A stretch of DNA of 21,762 nt, from the IMG/VR virus record IMGVR_UViG_3300030117_002262, positions 1-21,762 of that record, one strand, 5' to 3'. Below are positions 12,069 to 21,762 of the stretch, piece after piece. A program made the position numbers and the translations under genes. Below the pieces are notes generated by a model. It had not been told where the DNA came from, did no database searches, and saw only the letters and a program-made list of their open reading frames with translations. Source of the stretch: a virus. How positions within the stretch are numbered: the first letter of the stretch is position 1; every line of letters begins with the position of its first letter.

Positions 12069-14852
12069 ATGGCACATACAAAAGTAACAAAAACCTATTC
12101 CCAGAACACGGGAGTGGCGAATACATTTAGCTACTCTGGGAGTTTTGATGTATTTAAAGGAACTGAAGTTGTAGCATTATTAGATAATGTAGCATTAACA
12201 TATACAGCTTCAACAATTAATGAATCCGCCTCCCCTAGAGAATATTCAGTAGATACATCAGCTAAAACCATACATATTGGGGGAGCGGATTTATCTAGTG
12301 GTACTATAATAATAAGACCTGAGACTGATATGGGAGCTCCTACACCAAGAGCTACCTATGCACCAGGTTCATCTATTACATCTGAAGACCTCAATAATAA
12401 CCAAACGCAATTAATGCGTAAGGCTATGGAGTATGATGAAACTAAGATGTCAACTACTGGTGATACCATGACGGGTCACCTTACTATGGGTGAGGATACT
12501 ACAGTTATATTTGAAGGTGCAACAGACGATGGATATGAGACAACTCTTACGGTTGCTGATCCTACTGCTGATCGTACAATTACTCTTCCTAACGTAACTG
12601 GAACAGTAGTAACAACAGGAGATACAGCAACAGTTACAGCTACTATGCTGGCAGCTGATTCTGTTGATTCTTCTGAGTTGGTAGATGGTAGTATAGATTC
12701 AAGTCATATATCAAGTAGTGCAGTTACAACAGCTAAGGTTGCAGCTGACGCAATTACAGGAGCTAAAATTGCAGATGACGCTATAGATTCTGAACACTAT
12801 ACAGACGGTAGTATTGATACTGCACATATAGCTGACTTAAATGTTACTACAGCTAAAATAGCAGCTGATGCGATAACAGGAGCTAAAATAGCTGACGATG
12901 CTATCAACTCTGAGCATTACACAGATGGTAGTATTGACACAGCTCATATAGCTGACTTAAATGTAACAACTGCAAAGATAGCTGCTGATGCTATAACAGG
13001 TGCTAAGATAGCTGATGACGCTGTAGATTCTGAACATCTAGCAGCTGATTCTATAGATGCTGAACATTATGCAGCTGCATCCGTAGACGCTACAGCTTTA
13101 GCTTCTAACGCTGTTACTACAGCTAAGATTACTGATGCTAACGTAACTACAGCAAAAGTAGCAGATGATGCTATTACTATTGCTAAGGTAGGCTGTGAAC
13201 AAACAACCATATCTGACAGTGATTCCCATATTCCTACATCAGGAGCTGTTGTTGATTATGTTGCAGCACAGATAGCACCTATTGGTGGTCTTGAAGTAAT
13301 AGCAGATGAAGATAATTTCCCTTCAACTCAACCAGCTTCTGGTGTTGTAATATCAATTGCTGATGCAGCTGGTATTGTTGTCAGTGGAAGTGGATCTTCT
13401 ACTACTGCACGTACAGCTGGTAATGGATCTGATAATGTTACTATTAATAACTTCCCTTCTAGTCTTTATAGTGAAACACTAGCTAGTGGTGTAGGTCTTA
13501 TGGTCACATCTACTGGATCAAGTAATACATATAATTACCATAAACTCTTAGCAGCTGAAACTGATGTTAAACAGTTATCTGATGATATCAATGACTTCAA
13601 TGCTAGGTATCGTGTAAATGCTGGAGAACCTGGATCTAATAATGATGAAGGTGATTTAGTATTCGACACTAATGCTAATAAGATGAAGGTCTATGATGGT
13701 TCATCTTGGGGAGAAGTTACATCAACTGGTGAATTTAAATACTTATTCTTATGTCCTGCAGGTGGAAGCGGAAGTCCTACTTTAGATGGTAGTATTGCTA
13801 CATATGACCTTAGAGAATCTAGCAATTCAGGTACAGCAGCTAGTATAACAAATGCAGCACAACTTATTGTAAGTGTTAATGGTGTTGTACAAAAAGCTAA
13901 TACAGGTACTAGTGCTCCTGCAGAAGGATTTGCATTAGTAGATGCTAATACTATTGTATTTGGATCGAACTTAGCTAGTGGTGATTCCGTATTTATTATA
14001 CAGATAGGTTCAGCTGTAAGTATTCCTACACCAGGAGATGGTACAGTTGTAGAAGCTAAGATTGGTAGTGGAGCTGTAACAACAGCTAAGATTGCTGATT
14101 CTAATGTTACTGTTGCTAAAATGGCAGCTAACTCAGTAGACAGTGATCAATATGTTGACGGAAGTGTAGATCATGTTCACTTAGCAGCTGATTGCGTAGA
14201 TGGTGATAATATCCAAGATGATGTTATTAACTCAGAGCATATAGCAGCAGGTGCAATTGATTTAGAACATATGTCTTCTGAATCAGTTGATGAAGATAAT
14301 CTACATATATCTAATGCTGGTTCTAATGGACAATTCCTATCTAAACAATCTGGTAATTCAGGTGGTTTAACTTGGGCTACTGTATCAACAGAAAAAGGAT
14401 TAGATGGTGCTCATATTTGGAGAGTAAGTGCCGAATTTACTGGTGATGCTCAGCCTATAACTAGTAATTGGGAACAAGACGATAGTACTGGTGCTGGACG
14501 GGTAGGTACTGTTATGAGTGAAAGCTCTGGAGTATTTACATTTCCAAGTACAGGTATTTGGTATCTAGAACACACGGGTGTTTTTTATAACAGTGGTTCT
14601 GAAGATGCTACTAATCTTTATATTCAAGTAACTGAAAATAACGGTTCTGCTTGGACTACTACTGGAGAAGTATGGGTTTCTCAGTCAACTGGTTATTTTC
14701 AAGCTAAAGCTGCTACAACGTTGGATTGTACAAATACAAGTACTCATAAAGCACGATTTGCAGTTAATACAAGTAGTGGTAGTACAAGTTACCAAACAAG
14801 TTCAACTGTAAATAAATGTTATGTAATGTTCTTGAAACTAGGAGAAACATAA
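12069..14852 (+). CDS. Tail fibre protein (T7 gp17-like N-terminal domain)
   Basis: A 927-residue protein. Residues 1 to about 125 match the T7 tail-fibre N-terminal domain, which anchors to the gp11/gp12 tail (VTKTYSQNTGVANTFSYSG, then a strand-rich region ending in SEDLNNNQTQLMRKA). Next comes a 'GDTMTGHLTMG' motif (about 135-145), common at the start of phage fibre shafts, then a long series of short repeats (AxTxAKIADDAIxSEH...) from about 195 to 375, including two almost perfect 40-residue copies. A second short repeat block lies around 660-750. Residues 753-927 form a head domain shared with the protein at 15178-15897, starting NGQFLSKQSGNSGGLTW and ending in a CYVMFLKLGET strand. The head is probably a trimeric receptor-binding jelly-roll; that is inference. 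Confidence 0.88.
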   Translation: MAHTKVTKTYSQNTGVANTFSYSGSFDVFKGTEVVALLDNVALTYTASTINESASPREYSVDTSAKTIHIGGADLSSGTIIIRPETDMGAPTPRATYAPGSSITSEDLNNNQTQLMRKAMEYDETKMSTTGDTMTGHLTMGEDTTVIFEGATDDGYETTLTVADPTADRTITLPNVTGTVVTTGDTATVTATMLAADSVDSSELVDGSIDSSHISSSAVTTAKVAADAITGAKIADDAIDSEHYTDGSIDTAHIADLNVTTAKIAADAITGAKIADDAINSEHYTDGSIDTAHIADLNVTTAKIAADAITGAKIADDAVDSEHLAADSIDAEHYAAASVDATALASNAVTTAKITDANVTTAKVADDAITIAKVGCEQTTISDSDSHIPTSGAVVDYVAAQIAPIGGLEVIADEDNFPSTQPASGVVISIADAAGIVVSGSGSSTTARTAGNGSDNVTINNFPSSLYSETLASGVGLMVTSTGSSNTYNYHKLLAAETDVKQLSDDINDFNARYRVNAGEPGSNNDEGDLVFDTNANKMKVYDGSSWGEVTSTGEFKYLFLCPAGGSGSPTLDGSIATYDLRESSNSGTAASITNAAQLIVSVNGVVQKANTGTSAPAEGFALVDANTIVFGSNLASGDSVFIIQIGSAVSIPTPGDGTVVEAKIGSGAVTTAKIADSNVTVAKMAANSVDSDQYVDGSVDHVHLAADCVDGDNIQDDVINSEHIAAGAIDLEHMSSESVDEDNLHISNAGSNGQFLSKQSGNSGGLTWATVSTEKGLDGAHIWRVSAEFTGDAQPITSNWEQDDSTGAGRVGTVMSESSGVFTFPSTGIWYLEHTGVFYNSGSEDATNLYIQVTENNGSAWTTTGEVWVSQSTGYFQAKAATTLDCTNTSTHKARFAVNTSSGSTSYQTSSTVNKCYVMFLKLGET
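12750..13049 (+). repeat. 120-bp tandem repeat in the fibre gene
   Basis: Two full units (12750-12869 and 12870-12989) are followed by a partial third (from 12990 to about 13049), with an exact 120-base period. The first two units encode the same 40 residues except for one Asp/Asn change, yet by my hand count they differ at 22 of 120 bases, nearly all at third codon positions. The repeats form the fibre shaft at residues 228 to about 327. Confidence 0.9.
14840..14845 (+). promoter_or_regulatory. Ribosome binding site for the first fibre-companion gene
   Basis: AGGAGA lies six bases before ATG 14852, inside the last codons of the fibre gene. It supports that start over an in-frame TTG further upstream. 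The matching AGGAG at 15885-15889 has the same relation to ATG 15897, so the signal is part of the duplicated unit. Confidence 0.7.
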
Positions 14853-15178
14853 TGACAAGACCAACACATATAGAAAACTATTTAATAACAGTTCGTACAG
14901 GGCAATGGTTCGGTTGGTCTGACTCTAAAAATAAAATCTATGCCAATTTAATTGTGCATGATGGTGGGTCTAAACCTAGTGAAACAGATTGTACTAATGG
15001 ACTAAAAGCATTACAAGATGCTTGGGATTTAGAGAATGATTCTTATAAATCTAAACGTAGAGAATCTTATGATTCAATTCAAGAACAATTAGATCAACTT
15101 TACTGGGACAAAAAGAATGGCACTAACAAGTGGGTCGAAGCCATTGACAAAGTAAAATCTGACAATCCAAAACCATAA
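14852..15178 (+). CDS. Fibre-companion protein, copy 1 (possible fibre assembly factor)
   Basis: A 108-residue soluble protein, MTRPTHIENYLITVRTGQWF..., with a conserved middle (NLIVHDGGSKPS) and a helical end carrying the pattern KRRxSYDSIQEQLDQLYW...W...I. This C-terminal pattern, RRxxYPxxxxQLDxxYxxGxxxWxxxI, is widespread in phage proteins encoded next to tail fibres, often labelled XkdW-like or tail-fibre related. A role in folding or capping the fibre is inferred from position. Its ATG shares one base pair region with the fibre stop (TAATG), and its own stop overlaps the next start in the same way. Copy 2 lies at 15897-16214 and is similar over its whole length. Confidence 0.75.
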   Translation: MTRPTHIENYLITVRTGQWFGWSDSKNKIYANLIVHDGGSKPSETDCTNGLKALQDAWDLENDSYKSKRRESYDSIQEQLDQLYWDKKNGTNKWVEAIDKVKSDNPKP

Positions 15179-15897
15179 TGGCATTAACACAAGTAAAAAC
15201 AACAGGTTTAGCTGATGATGCTGTTACGACAGATAAGTTAGCTAACGCTATAAATTCAGAAAGAACAGCTAATACAGCTAAAACTACAAATGCTACACAC
15301 ACAGGTGAAGTAACTGGTAGTGGTGCTTTAACTATTGCAGATAATATTGTAGATGAAGCTAATTTAAAAGTATCTAACGCACCAACAAACGGTCAGTTTT
15401 TATCAGCTCAGTCTGGTAATACTGGTGGTTTAACATGGGCAGCAATAAGTAGTGATACGGATATAGATTTTGCATTATGGAGAGTTACAAGTAATTGGTC
15501 TGGAAATACTGACCCTATTACAAACTTTTCTGAAAATAATCACAGCGTAGATATGGGTTATAGTAGTGGAATTTTTTCATTTCCATCTACAGGTTTTTGG
15601 CACATTATGTTTCAAACGTATCTTTATTATAATTCTGATCAAGATAACATTGAACTACATTTACTTACAACAACAAATGATAGTAGTTACTCTACACGAG
15701 CACAAGCTTATTCACACATGAATAATGACGATGGTGGTAATTTATATACTACGATTCAAGTTAGTCATATATTTGATGTGACAGATACATCTAATTGTAA
15801 AGTAAAATTTAAAACTGCTGGAACTGCTGCAAACTTTCATACTTCGTCTAGTTCAAATGAGTCTTATGCAATCTTTAAAAAATTAGGAGCAACATAA
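15178..15897 (+). CDS. Short second fibre-like protein with the same head domain
   Basis: A 239-residue protein starting MALTQVKTTGLADDAVTTDKL, which resembles the shaft repeats of the main fibre. From about residue 73 (NAPTNGQFLSAQSGNTGGLTWA) to the C-terminus (ESYAIFKKLGAT) it aligns with the fibre head at residues 748-927, including WRV near the head start, SSGxFxFPSTGxW in the middle, and the final Lys-Leu-Gly-x-Thr. It lacks the T7-type tail-anchoring N-terminus, so it cannot attach to the tail in the same way; it might trimerise onto the main fibre or form an alternative tip. It sits between the two companion-protein copies, with one-base start/stop overlaps on each side. Confidence 0.8.
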   Translation: MALTQVKTTGLADDAVTTDKLANAINSERTANTAKTTNATHTGEVTGSGALTIADNIVDEANLKVSNAPTNGQFLSAQSGNTGGLTWAAISSDTDIDFALWRVTSNWSGNTDPITNFSENNHSVDMGYSSGIFSFPSTGFWHIMFQTYLYYNSDQDNIELHLLTTTNDSSYSTRAQAYSHMNNDDGGNLYTTIQVSHIFDVTDTSNCKVKFKTAGTAANFHTSSSSNESYAIFKKLGAT

Positions 15898-16214
15898 TGA
15901 GACCTACACACATTGAACATTATTTAGTAACAGTAAGACAAGGTTGTTGGTTTGGTTGGAGTGACCCAACTAATAAAATTTATGCAAATCTTATAGTGCA
16001 TGACGGAGGTTCTAAACCAACAGAAAAGGAATGTACAGATGGACTTACTACTTTACAAGCTGCTTGGGATTTAGAATATGATAGTTACAGATCTAAAAGA
16101 AGAGCTGAATATCCAAAAATGAGAGAACAATTAGATCAAATATATAATGAAGGATTAGATGCTTGGAAGGCTTCTATCAAAGCTATTAAAGATAAATATC
16201 CTAAACCAGCTTAA
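15897..16214 (+). CDS. Fibre-companion protein, copy 2
   Basis: A 105-residue paralogue of the protein at 14852-15178, about two-thirds identical by eye: RPTHIE.YL.TVR.G.WFGWSD..NKIYANLIVHDGGSKP is shared in full, and the C-terminal KRRAEYPKMREQLDQIYNEG region fits the family consensus better than copy 1. AGGAG at 15885-15889 precedes the start by seven bases. It follows the short fibre directly, as copy 1 follows the main fibre, so each head-bearing protein has its own companion. This pairing supports a partner or chaperone role, which remains an inference. Confidence 0.78.
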   Translation: MRPTHIEHYLVTVRQGCWFGWSDPTNKIYANLIVHDGGSKPTEKECTDGLTTLQAAWDLEYDSYRSKRRAEYPKMREQLDQIYNEGLDAWKASIKAIKDKYPKPA

Positions 16215-16612: not shown

Positions 16613-16872
16613 AAGATGCTGCTGAGGACCAAGAACACCAAATCCAAATTCTTGGTACATTTGTTAGACTTGGCGTAGTAGTTTGGTCTGGATTCATAAT
16701 AACCATGAATTATGTTGAGATACCTATGGTTAAAAAATCAGGTAACTCAGATATCACGTTCGTTGCCAGCGTATTTACGGGAGCACTTGCCACTTTTGGC
16801 TTGACCACTGGTAATAAAGGTGGAAAAGGAACTCCCGTTAATTGTCCAATGGCTAAAAAAAAGGAAGAATGA
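16567..16872 (+). CDS. Holin-like two-helix membrane protein
   Basis: A 101-residue protein: a charged N-terminus (MERKPEEKKG, then an amphipathic stretch to about 27), a first hydrophobic helix at about 28-48 (LGTFVRLGVVVWSGFIITMN), a short loop, a second at about 63-80 (ITFVASVFTGALATFGL), and a Lys-rich C-terminus (MAKKKEE). Size, two membrane helices and charged ends fit a small phage holin, and the site between fibre and small terminase is where T7 carries holin gene 17.5. No sequence match to T7 gp17.5 is claimed. The ATG lies inside the preceding gene, and the stop overlaps the next start as ATGA. Confidence 0.6.
   Translation: MERKPEEKKGILGKLKDAAEDQEHQIQILGTFVRLGVVVWSGFIITMNYVEIPMVKKSGNSDITFVASVFTGALATFGLTTGNKGGKGTPVNCPMAKKKEE
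16588..16594 (+). promoter_or_regulatory. Candidate -1 frameshift heptamer A AAA AAG (first site)
   Basis: In the frame of the proline-rich gene the sequence reads AAG AAA AAA AAG GAA, which contains the A AAA AAG heptamer in register. A -1 slip enters the holin-like frame at its codon 10 (GGA at 16594), 16 bases before the first gene's stop. This would make a fusion of about 219 residues. An 8-bp inverted repeat (16628-16635 with 16649-16656) lies downstream, but 33 bases away, further than known stimulators. Use of the site is unproven. Confidence 0.3.
16857..16863 (+). promoter_or_regulatory. Candidate -1 frameshift heptamer A AAA AAG (second site)
   Basis: At the end of the holin-like gene the codons read GCT AAA AAA AAG GAA GAA TGA. 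A -1 slip at A AAA AAG leads to GGA AGA ATG AAA, which is directly into the following signal-peptide gene. The same A8G run also looks like part of a ribosome binding region for ATG 16869, so it may simply serve re-initiation. Confidence 0.25.
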
Positions 16873-17240
16873 AAAAATGGCTTTTACTCTTCCTACTGTT
16901 ATCCCCCACGGTAGCAAGAGCAGAGTTGGTGACTCCAAATTTTACCCAAGGAAGCATGAACTCGACAACCACTACCACCCAAGAAATTACGGAGGAAATA
17001 ACAATAACAACATATGGTTCAGCATTAAACAAATGGTCTGGGGACAACATAACCCATACTTCAACCTCATCAGGAGGTATAGCCGATTCAGATTCGGTAT
17101 TCAACATGACAACAGCTGGTTCAGATTTCACTCTAGAAATCGTAACACGAGCAGCAAGTCAGGTATTAGAAGTACAGGAAATCGAAAGAACTATCGAAAC
17201 TACTGCTACTACTACCTCCTTATCGGTCTTCTCGCAATAG
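16869..17240 (+). CDS. Small exported protein with signal peptide
   Basis: A 123-residue protein. Residues 1-18 are a classical Sec signal peptide (MKKWLLLFLLLSPTVARA, cleavage before E19). The mature part is Thr/Ser-rich and predicted beta (LVTPNFTQGSMNSTTTTTQ... to TTSLSVFSQ), without cysteines. Proteins of this look are found in pairs in marine cyanophage genomes; I know of no proven function. It would act in the periplasm, outer membrane or virion. The start overlaps the holin-like stop (ATGA). Its last 76 bases overlap the next gene in another frame. Confidence 0.7.
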   Translation: MKKWLLLFLLLSPTVARAELVTPNFTQGSMNSTTTTTQEITEEITITTYGSALNKWSGDNITHTSTSSGGIADSDSVFNMTTAGSDFTLEIVTRAASQVLEVQEIERTIETTATTTSLSVFSQ

Positions 17241-17755
17241 GAATTCCTGTTAAAGCAGAAGATGAAACAAATAATGTTTCTAACCCTGTGGCGGCTGCGA
17301 CGGGAAATGTAACCAATCAAGCGGTGCAATTCCAGAATAATGGTGCTCCATCTAGACAGCAATATGGACCAAACATAAGTTGTAATGGTAGTACCATGAC
17401 ATTTAGCCCATTTTATATGGGTAATCATACGACACCATACGATGATGTAATGTCTCAACAAAGCTATACTGTAGCTGAAAATTGGGGTATGCAATTAAAT
17501 TTTATGATCCCTTTAGATAAAAGAGGATTAGAACAATGTCGTAAAATAGCAAAAAGACAAGAAGAAAAAATGCGATTGGATTATGAATTAGTACGTGCTA
17601 AAGAATGTGCTAGTTTACAGGCTAAAGGTTTTATGATTCATCCTAAGTCTAAATTATATCCATTATGTGCTGATATAATACCAATTGCTTCATATTTAAA
17701 ATCAATTCAAAAACCCGAAATTCCCAAGGAAAAGCCTTGGTACAATCCATTCTAA
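17165..17755 (+). CDS. Second exported protein, start probably ATT inside the preceding gene
   Basis: The mature sequence is clear from about 17258 onward (EDETNNVSNPVAAATGNVTNQAVQF...), with four cysteines (ISC, EQC, KEC, PLC) and a helical C-terminal part (QEEKMRLDYELVRAKECASL). Upstream in frame lies a good signal peptide: basic RSTGNRKNYRN, hydrophobic LLIGLLAIGIPV, cleavage after KA. There is no ATG, GTG or TTG close before it; the nearest ATG is 17033, which would add 44 residues that look like an out-of-frame shadow of the previous gene. ATT at 17165 gives a 196-residue product and is my preferred but uncertain start. It is a probable partner of the preceding exported protein. Function unknown. 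Confidence 0.6.
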   Translation: MRSTGNRKNYRNYCYYYLLIGLLAIGIPVKAEDETNNVSNPVAAATGNVTNQAVQFQNNGAPSRQQYGPNISCNGSTMTFSPFYMGNHTTPYDDVMSQQSYTVAENWGMQLNFMIPLDKRGLEQCRKIAKRQEEKMRLDYELVRAKECASLQAKGFMIHPKSKLYPLCADIIPIASYLKSIQKPEIPKEKPWYNPF

Positions 17756-18096: not shown

Positions 18097-18345
18097 ATGT
18101 CTAAAGCCACAGAAAAGCAGTTTAATGAACTGCATAACCTCGTCACTACTGAATTCCTTAAAAGGGTCAAGAGTGGCGAGGCTACTACTCAGGACTTAAA
18201 AGCAGCTTGTGATTGGCTGAAAGCAAATGATATAAGCGGTGTAGCATACGAAGGAAATCCACTTGACAAGTTAAATAAGATAATGCCAAAGGTAGATCGA
18301 GAACTTGTTACTAGGAGGATGTATGGCCGGCAAAAGACGGTTTAG
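18097..18345 (+). CDS. Terminase small subunit (T7 gp18-like)
   Basis: An 82-residue protein, close to T7 gp18 (89). MSKATEKQFNELHNLVTTEF...SGEATTQDLKAACDWLKANDI has the arrangement common to T7-like small terminases in marine phages: two N-terminal helices, then the ATTxDLxAAxxWLxxNxI segment (about residues 29-45). It recognises phage concatemers and brings in the large subunit during packaging. The ATG has no clear Shine-Dalgarno. The last 23 bases overlap the next gene in another frame. Unlike T7, where one or two lysis genes separate it from the large terminase, here 2.6 kb of unknown genes intervene. Confidence 0.82.
   Translation: MSKATEKQFNELHNLVTTEFLKRVKSGEATTQDLKAACDWLKANDISGVAYEGNPLDKLNKIMPKVDRELVTRRMYGRQKTV
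18313..18318 (+). promoter_or_regulatory. Strong ribosome binding site AGGAGG
   Basis: AGGAGG lies four bases before ATG 18323, inside the end of the small terminase gene. It selects ATG 18323 over the in-frame TTG at 18305 as the start of the next gene. Confidence 0.8.
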
Positions 18346-18577
18346 TGGACCGAAGTACGCTAATGGTAACCATAAATCACAACAAAAAGCGTACATGCAG
18401 GGGAACGGAAAGAAGATCCGTCTAGCTGCAGATAGATTAGCTGCTAAATTACCAGGGGGTAAAGTTGGAGATGGCTTAGATGCTTCTCATAACAAAAACG
18501 GTCCTGGTAAGCACGGTTGGGAAGCAGCCTCAAAGAACCGTGCTAGAAAAAACAGATCCAAACTACACATTACTTAA
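18323..18577 (+). CDS. Small basic protein, possibly HNH-derived
   Basis: An 84-residue protein starting MAGKRRFSGPKYANGNHKSQ, very rich in Lys, Arg and Gly, with no membrane segment. The C-terminal part, DASHNKNGPGKHGWEAASKNRARKNR, resembles the histidine loop and 'SxNR' ending of small phage HNH proteins, but the first catalytic His pair and the spacing are not convincing. An inactive or degenerate HNH-like DNA-binding protein is one possibility; this is low-certainty inference. Position directly after the small terminase suggests a packaging-related job, as HNH proteins next to terminase genes cooperate with terminase in some phages. Confidence 0.65.
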   Translation: MAGKRRFSGPKYANGNHKSQQKAYMQGNGKKIRLAADRLAAKLPGGKVGDGLDASHNKNGPGKHGWEAASKNRARKNRSKLHIT

Positions 18578-18581
18578 AATT

Positions 18582-19157
18582 ATGCCAGCACCAAATAGAA
18601 GTAGGACACAAGATCCTAACGCACCAAAATATAAATATAAACCCGTCCGAAATAGAAGTAGGACACAAGATTCTAACGCACCAAAAGCTAAATATAGAGG
18701 CGGACCAGGTAGAGGAGAGACTACATCACAAAAGAAAAGCCGAAAGGAAAGGATTAAAAGAGAAATAGAAAGAATAAAGAAAGGTGGAACAACATTTTTT
18801 AAAGGTAAAAAAGATTCCCTTACATCTTTAAAAGGAAAGCTGAAAAAGGTTAATTCAGAGATTAAAAGTTCATCTTCTAAGAAAAGTAATCTTAAAATAG
18901 CACCTGCAGGTTTTACATTAGGACATGATTATCGAGGTGCAGCTGAAGCTCAAAAAATGGCTAGAGCTAGAAAGAAATCTGGTAAAACTATAGCTCAACT
19001 AGAAGCAGAAAGAGATAAAAAAATGAAAACAACGTTGCAAGAGCGGAATGCATCTTGGAGACAAGCTAGAAAAGAAGGTAAGTTAAAAGAATGGGAAGCT
19101 AAGAATAAGCCTAAGAAGAAAAGATTTAGGAATATGGTAGATCCTAGCGAATACTAA
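18582..19157 (+). CDS. Highly basic protein with N-terminal duplication
   Basis: A 191-residue protein in which Lys and Arg make up a large share of residues. Residues 5-16 and 24-35 are near-identical copies of NRSRTQDPNAPK. Then come a Gly/Arg stretch, a charged helical region (KKSRKERIKREIERIKKGG), a short 'APAGFTLGHDYRGAAEAQKMARARKKSGK' part and a basic C-terminus. No catalytic motif is seen. Such composition suggests DNA or RNA binding, perhaps a DNA-condensing or virion protein. The start is ATG 18582, five bases after the previous stop; the frame extends upstream but only through the neighbouring gene. Confidence 0.68.
   Translation: MPAPNRSRTQDPNAPKYKYKPVRNRSRTQDSNAPKAKYRGGPGRGETTSQKKSRKERIKREIERIKKGGTTFFKGKKDSLTSLKGKLKKVNSEIKSSSSKKSNLKIAPAGFTLGHDYRGAAEAQKMARARKKSGKTIAQLEAERDKKMKTTLQERNASWRQARKEGKLKEWEAKNKPKKKRFRNMVDPSEY
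18593..18686 (+). repeat. 37-bp direct repeat, 57-base period
   Basis: Copies at 18593-18629 and 18650-18686 differ at one base (C/T). They are in frame and duplicate the peptide NRSRTQDxNAPK at the N-terminus of the basic protein. The near identity points to a recent duplication, in contrast to the diverged fibre repeats. Confidence 0.9.
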
Positions 19158-19163
19158 GGAGGT
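19155..19163 (+). promoter_or_regulatory. Strong ribosome binding site TAAGGAGGT
   Basis: A near-complete anti-16S match lies five bases before ATG 19169 and includes the stop codon of the preceding gene. It is the best Shine-Dalgarno I see in the window and suggests high translation of the next gene. Confidence 0.85.
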
Positions 19164-19168
19164 AACCT

Positions 19169-20791
19169 ATGGCAATATTAAAGCCTTTGGTAAAAGCCGC
19201 TGGTAAAGGTCTCAAAGAGGCAACCGAAAAGTTTACCAGACAAGGTGTTGAGACTACTACTAAAAATGTACTTGAAGAGGGTGTAGAGCAATCTATAAAA
19301 CACCCTCTTTCACCTAAAGATGCTGCTACTATTATTAGTGGATTAGGATTTGAAGCTAACTCTCAACAAGCTACTTATATTAACCATTATATGCATGCAC
19401 TTGATGGTCCTGGAATAATAAATACAATTCAAAAAGGAGATGTTCAAAATATTGAAAAGCTCAAAAGGTATATAACAAATTATTCTGTTTATAGAGAACA
19501 GGGTGCATTAAATGAAATTGGCCATATTGCTGATAATGGTGCAAATAATTTAATTCAAGATACTGGTAAAGCTCAGAACGCTCAAGCAGCTATGGAAGGT
19601 GCTTCTCCTAAACCAGCAGAACCAGCTAAACCTTATAACCTTTCTGAAGGTGTAGAAGATTTTATGGGTGATACAGATCTAACAACTGCTAGAGCTTGGG
19701 AAAATCCTGGTGGTGAATTAGATAAAGCCCTTGAAGATATGTTAACAGTTAAGAAAAAAACTACTATAACAACTCCTGAAGGTAAAAAACTCACTTTAAA
19801 TAAAGGTGATAAAATGACACCTGATATGTTAACAGGTAGTAAGAAAGATTATTATAATAGTTTAATTGCTACTGGATTCAAAACTTCTCCAGATGATGAA
19901 TTAGTATATGGTTTTGGTGGGCAAGAATTATCTAAAATGGCTGGATTAGAAGGTAAAGATCCAGGGTTTTCTCCTCAATTACATAAAGGAAAAAGCTTTC
20001 ATCATAAATCAATGAAAGAAATACAATCTTCTATCCATAAACGAGCTAGGGAACTTAGAGAATCAGGTGAAGCAACTACTGATGATTTAATTAATTTACA
20101 TGCTTTGTCTAATTCAATGGGTGCCCCATCAGGTAGTAGAAAAAGTGCAGGTATGTGGTTAGAAGAATTTGGCCATAATATAACACATAAACAAACTGCC
20201 CAACGTAAGGGCATAGAACCTACAACTACTAGATGGACTAATAATCCTTTAAAGAAAGGCAAATCGGGTAGACCTTCTAAACCACCTGAATTTTCAAAAG
20301 AATTATTTAATGAAGCTGTTAATGCATCTGATGAATTAGGAGTTGATTTAACTAGATTTGATTTACAATATATTAAATCTTGGTCAGACGTTGCTGAAGG
20401 CCAACAGGGTCCAATAAATCTAAAACGAGGAATTGCAAAGTGGAAAGTTTTTAGAAAAACTGATGCCTATAAAAGATTTGGACCTGATGGTGAAAGTGAA
20501 ATGTCTAGATTAATGAAAAGTACAGAGAATATGAATATTGCTGAATTAACTCAATTCCAAAAAGAAATGCTTGAAGATGTCACAAAACCTATGACAGAAG
20601 AAATGGTTCTAATGGAAGAAGTTATGGATAGTCTTACACCTAGAGAATTGATACAGTTAATGCAAAAAAAAGATTGGAATACACCTTTAAATCTTAAAAA
20701 AGCTTTAGAAGAAAACAAACGTTTTAAAGAAAGACATATTAAACAATCTAAAGAAAGAAGAGTTGAATCTGCAATTAAGGATTATTATTAA
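19169..20791 (+). CDS. Unknown 540-residue protein between the terminase genes
   Basis: Starts MAILKPLVKAAGKGLKEATEK, an amphipathic basic helix, after a very strong ribosome binding site. It has no signal peptide or membrane helix. The middle has a distinctive patch near residues 317-341: GAPSGSRKSAGMW, then LEEFGHNITHK with Glu-Glu and two His, which could bind metal but matches no motif I can name. The C-terminal 100 residues are long charged helices (EFQ/EMLEDV...PRELIQLMQKKDW). Size, helices and strong translation resemble virion internal proteins more than an enzyme; it could also be a packaging-associated factor. I do not recognise the family. Confidence 0.75.
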   Translation: MAILKPLVKAAGKGLKEATEKFTRQGVETTTKNVLEEGVEQSIKHPLSPKDAATIISGLGFEANSQQATYINHYMHALDGPGIINTIQKGDVQNIEKLKRYITNYSVYREQGALNEIGHIADNGANNLIQDTGKAQNAQAAMEGASPKPAEPAKPYNLSEGVEDFMGDTDLTTARAWENPGGELDKALEDMLTVKKKTTITTPEGKKLTLNKGDKMTPDMLTGSKKDYYNSLIATGFKTSPDDELVYGFGGQELSKMAGLEGKDPGFSPQLHKGKSFHHKSMKEIQSSIHKRARELRESGEATTDDLINLHALSNSMGAPSGSRKSAGMWLEEFGHNITHKQTAQRKGIEPTTTRWTNNPLKKGKSGRPSKPPEFSKELFNEAVNASDELGVDLTRFDLQYIKSWSDVAEGQQGPINLKRGIAKWKVFRKTDAYKRFGPDGESEMSRLMKSTENMNIAELTQFQKEMLEDVTKPMTEEMVLMEEVMDSLTPRELIQLMQKKDWNTPLNLKKALEENKRFKERHIKQSKERRVESAIKDYY

Positions 20792-20793
20792 CC

Positions 20794-20970
20794 ATGGCAA
20801 GATTATCTAAAAAAAAGAAAAAGAAAAAAAGAGATCTTTTATTAATCTCCAATGCTAATAAGATTGTTCCAATCAGAACTGAAGAATCTATTAATCAAAG
20901 ACTTTTAAAAATGACTGGTGATATAAAACGTTATGGTTATGGACCAACACGTAGAATTAAAAACAAATGA
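20794..20970 (+). CDS. Small poly-Lys protein of 58 residues
   Basis: MARLSKKKKKKKRDLLLISN with a seven-lysine run at residues 6-12, then a mixed part ending in GYGPTRRIKNK. It starts two bases after the preceding stop and its TGA overlaps the large terminase ATG as ATGA, indicating coupled translation. The Lys run is coded by A-rich DNA that is prone to slippage. It is probably a nucleic-acid-binding accessory, judging only from charge and position. Confidence 0.65.
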   Translation: MARLSKKKKKKKRDLLLISNANKIVPIRTEESINQRLLKMTGDIKRYGYGPTRRIKNK

Positions 20971-21762
20971 CCGATGTTGTCACTGCATTAAAAGATGATT
21001 TTAAACTATTCCTACAAGCTTTGTGGGAACAGTTAGATCTTCCGTCCCCTACAAGAGCACAATATTCCATAGCTGATTACTTACAAAATGGACCAAAAAG
21101 ATTACAAATTCAAGCCTTTAGAGGTGTTGGTAAATCTTGGATTACTGGTGCTTTTGTCTTATGGACCTTGTTTAAAGACTCTGAAAAGAAAATAATGATT
21201 ATATCTGCATCTAAAGAACGTGCAGATAACATGTCAATCTTCCTACAAAAACTAATCATTGAAACTCCATGGCTCAAACATCTAAGACCGAAATCAGAAG
21301 ACTCTCGTTGGAGTCGCATCAGCTTCGACGTCCTTTGTTCCCCACACCAAGCCCCAAGCGTAAAGTCGGTGGGCATCACTGGACAGCTAACAGGAAGCAG
21401 AGCAGATTTAATGATCTTGGACGACATAGAGGTTCCTGGAAACTCCATGACGGAGTTAATGCGTGAAAAATTACTTCAACTCTGTACAGAAGCTGAATCC
21501 ATCCTTACGCCGAAAGACGATTCTCGTATTATGTATCTCGGGACTCCTCAGACTACTTTTACTGTTTATCGTAAGTTGGCAGAGCGTTCGTATCGTCCCT
21601 TCGTTTGGCCAGCGAGATACCCCAAATCCCTTGCCAATTACGAAGGACTTATAGCTCCACAGCTACAATCAGACATAGACACAGGTGCTGAATCAGGTGC
21701 CTGTACTGACCCAGATAGATTTGATGATGATGACCTTATTGAAAGGGAAGCATCCATGGGAC
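20967..21762 (+). CDS. Terminase large subunit (T7 gp19-like), N-terminal part
   Basis: 265 codons are visible and the frame runs off the right edge. It is the ATPase half of the DNA-packaging motor. The adenine/Walker A region AFRGVGKSW is at residues 50-58; ISASKERADNMSIF follows at 79-92; SVKSVGITGQLTGSRADLMI is at 131-150; the Walker B is MILDDIE at 149-155 with the catalytic acidic residue; SRIMYLGTPQT, the coupling-motif region, follows. Each matches T7 gp19 in order and spacing. The nuclease domain is outside the window. The start ATG overlaps the preceding stop. From about 21280 the DNA becomes less AT-rich than the rest. Confidence 0.95.
   Translation, partial: MTDVVTALKDDFKLFLQALWEQLDLPSPTRAQYSIADYLQNGPKRLQIQAFRGVGKSWITGAFVLWTLFKDSEKKIMIISASKERADNMSIFLQKLIIETPWLKHLRPKSEDSRWSRISFDVLCSPHQAPSVKSVGITGQLTGSRADLMILDDIEVPGNSMTELMREKLLQLCTEAESILTPKDDSRIMYLGTPQTTFTVYRKLAERSYRPFVWPARYPKSLANYEGLIAPQLQSDIDTGAESGACTDPDRFDDDDLIEREASMG

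Follow-up and report, generated by a model that had tools for sequence, protein, structure and literature searches.

A hypervariable slot between the terminase genes of marine cyanopodoviruses encodes a predicted HNH/EndoVII-like protein

What separates the two terminase genes of a T7-like marine phage, and why should anything substantial lie there? The question is raised by a 21,762-base virus fragment (IMG/VR record IMGVR_UViG_3300030117_002262; GC 36%), referred to here in its full length as the window. It comes from a T7-like cyanophage and covers the structural half of the genome, and its terminase large subunit (TerL) is 96% identical to that of Prochlorococcus phage NATL1A-7 and about 90% identical to that of P-SSP7. 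Between the terminase small subunit (TerS) and TerL lie four tightly packed open reading frames (ORFs) on the same strand, encoding 84, 191, 540 and 58 amino acids. A preliminary description of this block was confirmed in position and content, and the block is unusual relative to T7 and unannotated. Comparison with related loci revealed that it is the window phage's version of a general hypervariable cyanopodovirus slot, not a phage-specific insertion. We tentatively read the main product of the slot as an HNH/EndoVII-type nuclease that serves as an accessory, rapidly replaced conflict protein, a reading that falls just short of probable. The features of the locus are as follows.

18097..18345, + strand: terminase small subunit (TerS), left slot border (PF11123 1.3e-17, phrog_891 3.8e-23)
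18323..18577, + strand: 84-amino-acid basic protein of the Syn5 gp50 / P-SSP7 gp48 family, pI 11.2, overlapping TerS (phrog_6437 2.4e-6; BLAST to NATL1A-7 CYIG_00055, P-SSP2 and P-SSP7)
18582..19157, + strand: 191-amino-acid highly basic, probably disordered protein, pI 10.8, net charge +38
19156..19163, + strand: AAGGAGGT, ribosome binding site of the 540-amino-acid gene, overlapping the stop codon of the 191-amino-acid gene (anti-Shine-Dalgarno duplex)
19169..20791, + strand: 540-amino-acid slot protein, pI 8.2, net charge +2 (alignment of same-locus relatives; mosaic junction near codon 154)
19943..20275, + strand: predicted His-Me-finger (HNH/EndoVII-like) core, residues 259-369 (AlphaFold, profile links)
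20000..20005, + strand: H278-H279, the HH closing predicted strand 1 (invariant in alignment; model)
20174..20188, + strand: H336 and H340, HxxxH in a predicted helix (invariant in alignment; model)
20794..20970, + strand: 58-amino-acid poly-Lys protein with seven consecutive Lys, pI 11.2 (ORF; position shared with relatives)
20967..21762, + strand, continuing past the window end: terminase large subunit (TerL), N-terminal part, right slot border (phrog_38 1.1e-61)

The locus was compared across NATL1A-7, eight other named cyanophages and 80 viral contigs retrieved via TerL (labels such as L001 denote individual loci). TerS, the gp50-like protein, a small HNH endonuclease and TerL were each placed by profile, and the 74 loci that reached TerS or the gp50-like gene were counted as complete. 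This analysis revealed a near-constant order in the complete loci, with TerS followed by a gp50-like basic protein, usually the small HNH gene, a slot of 0-5.4 kb, and TerL. The slot was seen in the retrieved contigs and in the nine named cyanophages. Most non-empty loci carried large proteins for which BLAST found no relative at any other locus, at TerL identities of 87-97% to the window; in L012, L013, L014, L017, L072 and L077 TerL was 94-97% identical, and the slot proteins had no BLAST match to those of the window. In several loci the slot held only very basic proteins (e.g. L073, L083, L088), and the proteins in the Syn5 slot are annotated as structural. The slot was empty in three of the 74 complete loci and is therefore not essential; in pelagiphage HTVC011P only about 15 bases lie between TerS and TerL. 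A universal C-terminal tag ahead of TerL was looked for in the slot region and none was found, and phage records contained no full-length match to any of three further slot proteins used as queries. The preliminary description had proposed an added packaging, condensation or ejected-protein system and suggested asking whether relatives have or lack the block as a unit. Action on DNA is likely, but the block is not an extra cassette, the slot being general in marine cyanopodoviruses; the same four genes are present in NATL1A-7, and slot content is replaced in other close relatives.

The 540-amino-acid protein has seven homologues from viral contigs and an eighth in NATL1A-7, to which it is 62.5% identical over its full length. 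Its layout comprises an exchanged N-terminal part (about residues 1-154), a middle part, the HNH/EndoVII-like core and a helical C-terminal part. Identity to the L002 and L003 proteins was 96-99% from the middle part through the core to the C-terminal part, but only 40% and 25% over residues 1-154. Compared with NATL1A-7 (L001), identity was 88% in the middle, 91% in the core, 68% in the C-terminal part and 43% in the N-terminal part. By these alignments the gene is a mosaic with a recombined N-terminal part, because N-terminal identity to the three loci is 25-43% against 91-99% for the core. The core, with dS 0.20 and dN 0.058 relative to NATL1A-7 (TerL, dS 0.32 and dN 0.022), is under purifying selection. 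We regard all four ORFs of the block as genuine genes on comparative grounds, because NATL1A-7 is annotated with a matching arrangement, its large protein is homologous over the full length, and dN is well below dS in the conserved part. In an eight-member alignment that included the window and excluded NATL1A-7, the only invariant histidines were H278, H279, H336 and H340, forming the pattern HH...HxxxH. As in polymorphic toxins, domains are interchangeable within a shared protein, with the N-terminal 154 residues swapped and the core retained, and N- and C-terminal modules recur among otherwise different slot proteins. The N-terminal part did not score significantly as a docking domain common to slot proteins (best unrelated slot hit 11.4 bits, compared with 13.6 bits for a reversed decoy). 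Among 84,980 bacterial and archaeal genomes scanned, no relative was detected, and the family and core profiles had no match among PDB sequences.

A core shared with other slot proteins was recovered by profile analysis. Among 32 non-redundant large slot proteins, HH was present in 17, whereas shuffled sequences gave an expectation of 3.3; the longer pattern, in which a closely spaced H..H pair comes after HH, was present in 10, compared with 0.2 expected. Iterated profiles from one cluster collected 23 slot proteins. Leave-one-out profiles regained core members at 16-58 bits (E 1e-15 to 1e-3, Z=25000), the exceptions being L069 and L037 at E about 0.02; reversed decoys in these searches scored at most 3.4 bits. 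The features of the core-set alignment were HH (or DH), a glycine, usually G[ND] and Asn, and H..H. The profile of the window family matched L031 at 37.7 bits, and L031 scored 22.7 bits against a core profile built without it. These scores make it likely that the 540-amino-acid protein is linked to a core shared by many slot proteins. Searches of this kind, suggested in the preliminary description for the 540- and 191-amino-acid proteins, thus yielded a shared-core link for the former via L031 and no curated family or solved structure. In addition, the slot proteins of S-RIP2, L035, L047, L062 and L066 matched endonuclease VII or HNH families of PHROG, with E values mostly between 1e-5 and 1e-2, which independently supports assignment of slot proteins to the nuclease class.

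We also modeled the conserved part of the protein. An AlphaFold model of residues 259-369 (26 sequences) contained a strand, two helices, a strand and a helix, and pLDDT was 81-94 for the greater part of the core. In model numbering, strand 17-21 ends in HH and is followed by the two helices, strand 70-74 and helix 75-88 with HxxxH. The predicted arrangement is the beta-beta-alpha of HNH/EndoVII (His-Me finger) nucleases with a helical insert and with the histidines at the expected places. Among tabulated toxin motifs are Tox-AHH, '[AG]HH, N, H, H, Y', and Tox-GHH2, 's[AGP]HH, HxxxH' (PMC3482391); the core-set layout (HH, N, H, H) is similar to the former, and the HH, HxxxH pattern to the latter. 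HNH/EndoVII polymorphic toxins (Tox-AHH, Tox-LHH, Tox-GHH2) are like the 540-amino-acid protein in motif layout and in modular exchange of the remainder. In contrast to these toxins, the protein has no Pfam match, its exchanged part is the N terminus and not the toxin end, and its gene lies in the packaging operon of a lytic phage. No immunity gene was identified nearby, as the flanks hold only small basic genes, none matching defence or immunity families.

NATL1A-7 CYIG_00055 to CYIG_00052 have the same order and spacing as the window, and both lack the small HNH gene; NATL1A-7 differs in the N-terminal third of the large protein and in the 84-amino-acid gene (46% identical), and its genes are annotated as hypothetical only. 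The P-SSP7 gp47-gp51 interval likewise contains TerS, gp48 (the homologue of the 84-amino-acid protein), a single large slot protein (gp50, 568 amino acids) and TerL, but retains the small HNH gene gp49, and its gp50 has no BLAST similarity to the 540-amino-acid protein. The C-terminal part of P-SSP7 gp50 resembles phrog_38472 'endolysin'. The Syn5 gp50-gp59 interval occupies the same place and has the gp50-like basic protein in common with the window, but retains the small HNH gene gp51, and its large proteins are unrelated to the window's; gp53, gp54 and gp58 had no BLAST similarity to window proteins and no match from the window-family or core profiles.

The small HNH endonuclease (109 amino acids) was present at the locus in 55 of 74 complete loci and missing from 19. 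It was absent from the window record and from anywhere in the complete NATL1A-7 record. Each of the 19 loci lacking the small HNH gene had an HH-type slot protein, compared with 24 of the 55 loci that have the gene; when slot types were collapsed, the figures were 15 of 15 and 10 of 26. In L018, a close relative, the small HNH gene lies upstream of TerS rather than downstream (L018:3118-3447); the position after the gp50-like gene, where it usually lies, is occupied by genes for a basic protein and a slot protein of the DH type. Relocation of the gene was considered in light of L018 and was rejected, as the gene is absent from the complete NATL1A-7 record. The 84-residue protein had been proposed as a possible HNH relic. 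This was rejected, as BLAST ties it to the gp50-like family and not to P-SSP7 gp49 / Syn5 gp51, and this separate conserved family coexists with a true HNH gene in other phages; the predicted HNH-like site sits in the 540-amino-acid protein. The consensus of the 84-amino-acid family (63 sequences) has a conserved D..H and NR.

The other genes of the block are small and very basic. The preliminary account of mostly basic genes holds for the 84-, 191- and 58-amino-acid proteins, but not for the 540-amino-acid protein, which is neutral. That account also correctly gave the 540-amino-acid gene the strongest ribosome binding site of the window (the AAGGAGGT duplex at -13.3 kcal/mol, compared with -10.9 kcal/mol for the runner-up) and coupled the 58-amino-acid gene to TerL through a shared ATGA at 20967-20970. 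The 58-amino-acid gene has the position of 64-71-amino-acid basic ORFs in NATL1A-7 and relatives. The 191-amino-acid protein has a duplicated N-terminal segment (NRSRTQDxNAPK, twice); comparably basic genes occupy the slot in many relatives, and similarity to the counterparts in L002, L001 and L062 was at best weak (z 2.9-4.7). A tblastn search with it against 50,697 phage records gave no match, even with the threshold relaxed to E 1. When the four window proteins were scanned against Pfam, PHROG, NCBIfam and PADLOC, the only useful result was the phrog_6437 match of the 84-amino-acid protein.

Our preferred reading, of an accessory nuclease acting in conflict, can be put as a sequence of steps. 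The 540-amino-acid protein would be made late in infection from its own strong ribosome binding site. It is most likely a metal-dependent HNH/EndoVII (His-Me finger) nuclease, with a predicted active site to which a strand contributes H278-H279 and the following helix H336/H340. Recombination has swapped its N-terminal part and kept the putative catalytic core. Its target may be host or rival-phage DNA, cut either in the cell or following ejection from the virion, and the very basic 191- and 58-amino-acid proteins are proposed as DNA-binding or packaging partners. Phage polyvalent proteins, which are delivered with DNA, provide a precedent for the late-gene position (PMC5512222). Several results weigh against this reading. 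The direct window-to-core score was weak (4 bits, 7 at best for relatives), so that the link to the core runs through L031; the corresponding hhalign probability was 54%, with 2 of 150 column shuffles equally good. The central Asn of the HNH motif is replaced in the window family, and the protein had no Pfam, PHROG or NCBIfam match. The core model was built on an alignment hand-trimmed around the motif, and the AlphaFold model of all 540 residues (8 sequences) was poor, with pLDDT 63. Foldseek searches with the full and core models identified no solved-structure match, and the core model had no convincing structural match except NATL1A-7's own protein in BFVD. The nuclease call is therefore a prediction, and the conflict role is deduced solely from variability.

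The main alternative, which we consider unlikely though it accounts for several observations, is that the 540-amino-acid protein is the clade's packaging or maturation endonuclease, having replaced the small HNH protein to help TerL cut concatemers. The precedent is HK97 gp74, which stimulates cleavage at cos (PMC9410871). Like the gp74 gene, the 540-amino-acid gene adjoins the terminase genes and is of predicted HNH type; it sits inside the terminase operon with ATGA coupling downstream, the small HNH gene normal at this locus is absent from the NATL1A-7 and window records, and every HNH-less locus has an HH-type slot protein. However, the loci lacking the HNH gene amount to essentially a single clade with one neighbour, which means that the association between HNH absence and HH-type proteins is not independent, and HK97 gp74 is a small cofactor whereas the 540-amino-acid protein is large, mosaic and exchangeable. 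T7 packages its DNA with no known HNH protein beside its terminase. The slot proteins are also far more variable than TerL, which would be odd in a TerL partner. The DNA of P-SSP7 has fixed termini bearing direct repeats, and its packaging is believed to resemble that of T7 (PMC3350473). We slightly favour the conflict reading over packaging: extreme turnover, exchange of domains within the protein and a slot that can be dispensed with are what an accessory effector would show, and variation so far above that of TerL is not expected of its partner.

It is improbable that the slot products are instead virion components of the decoration, horn or ejected type, with the 540- and 191-amino-acid proteins as structural or DNA-binding parts without nuclease activity. 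The late-gene position, the frequency of highly basic slot proteins and the Syn5 interval, with gp53, gp54 and gp58 annotated as structural, all fit such a role, and the Syn5 virion bears a horn and knobs (PMC10575957). However, the slot proteins of Syn5 and P60 are acidic and unrelated to the window's, the capsid shell of P-SSP7 consists of the major capsid protein only despite its 568-amino-acid slot protein, and the invariance of HH...HxxxH would be difficult to account for if the protein were purely structural. More doubtful still is that the slot is a landing site of free-standing HNH homing-type endonucleases, whose own gene conversion, and not selection for phage function, would drive hypervariability. 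Homing HNH genes are common in phages (e.g. PMC12724721), and HNH-type proteins, tight borders and replacement between nearly identical flanks would be expected from homing. The slot genes speak against this very improbable account: they are long and made of several parts, run in the same direction as the operon and are translationally integrated into it, and have basic partner genes alongside; the slot sometimes holds no HNH-type gene, and the 540-amino-acid gene recombines within the protein instead of moving whole.

Further examples of exchange were observed at other loci. The slot proteins of L064, L060, L063 and L036 have a glycine-rich hydrophobic C-terminal module in common, and a second such module is common to those of L075, L074, L039, L006, L029 and L026. 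Such sharing among slot proteins with differing nuclease-like parts is as expected from domain shuffling, and the glycine-rich modules are possible membrane or ejection segments. The C-terminal 42 residues of the L072 slot protein (L072:4615-5865) are 57% identical to a separate 71-amino-acid basic ORF before TerL in NATL1A-7 (L001:19694-19909), a likeness that suggests fusion or fission and a physical link between the two. In cyanophage 9515-10a a transaldolase fills the slot before TerL (L008:5358-6005), and a 573-amino-acid protein with an EH...N...N-like pattern and a hydrophobic C terminus lies directly after TerL (L008:7932-9653), as if it were a displaced slot protein. Two loci have an inserted cupin-like gene of 181-182 amino acids (PPHTHPNVDSYEVAL) immediately ahead of TerS (L094:1194-1739 and L096:169-717). 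Elsewhere in the window, two long ORFs overlap in different frames (16820-17755 and 16869-17240): a 123-amino-acid ORF (phrog_650, with a signal-peptide-like start) is nested in the first part of a 311-amino-acid frame, whose C-terminal half is a gp165-like protein (phrog_1755) and whose start assignment is tentative. At 12069-16214 a tail-fibre-like C-terminal segment and the next gene of about 110 amino acids (RPTHIE.YL.TVR.G.WFGWSD) form a tandem duplicate, with copies at 12069-14852 plus 14816-15178 and at 15178-15897 plus 15897-16214.

The individual parts of this locus resemble known kinds, namely HNH/EndoVII nucleases, polymorphic toxins and packaging HNH enzymes. We found no description of the slot or of the shared core in the literature searched, which did not cover the main comparative study (Labrie et al. 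2013), and the slot proteins, where annotated, are mostly hypothetical. These cyanophages rank among the most abundant ocean viruses, and their packaging operon had been regarded as a conserved core; full turnover of the slot at 94-97% TerL identity marks strong diversifying pressure outside the tail-fibre genes. Terminase genes are among the under-recruiting 'metaviromic islands' of marine phages, a pattern that its authors called obscure (PMC3909814), and the slot might bear on it. In its widest form the proposal, which we offer as speculative and on balance unlikely, is of a population-wide polymorphic nuclease locus in the terminase operon of lytic T7-like Prochlorococcus and Synechococcus phages, whose unrelated-looking proteins would share one very divergent HNH/EndoVII core with exchangeable ends, be used against rival phages or the genomes of hosts, and in one clade have replaced the packaging HNH protein as well. 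The slot proteins would be candidate effectors in the conflicts of picocyanobacterial phages with one another and with their hosts, and whether a nuclease beside the terminase serves packaging or conflict becomes a testable question.

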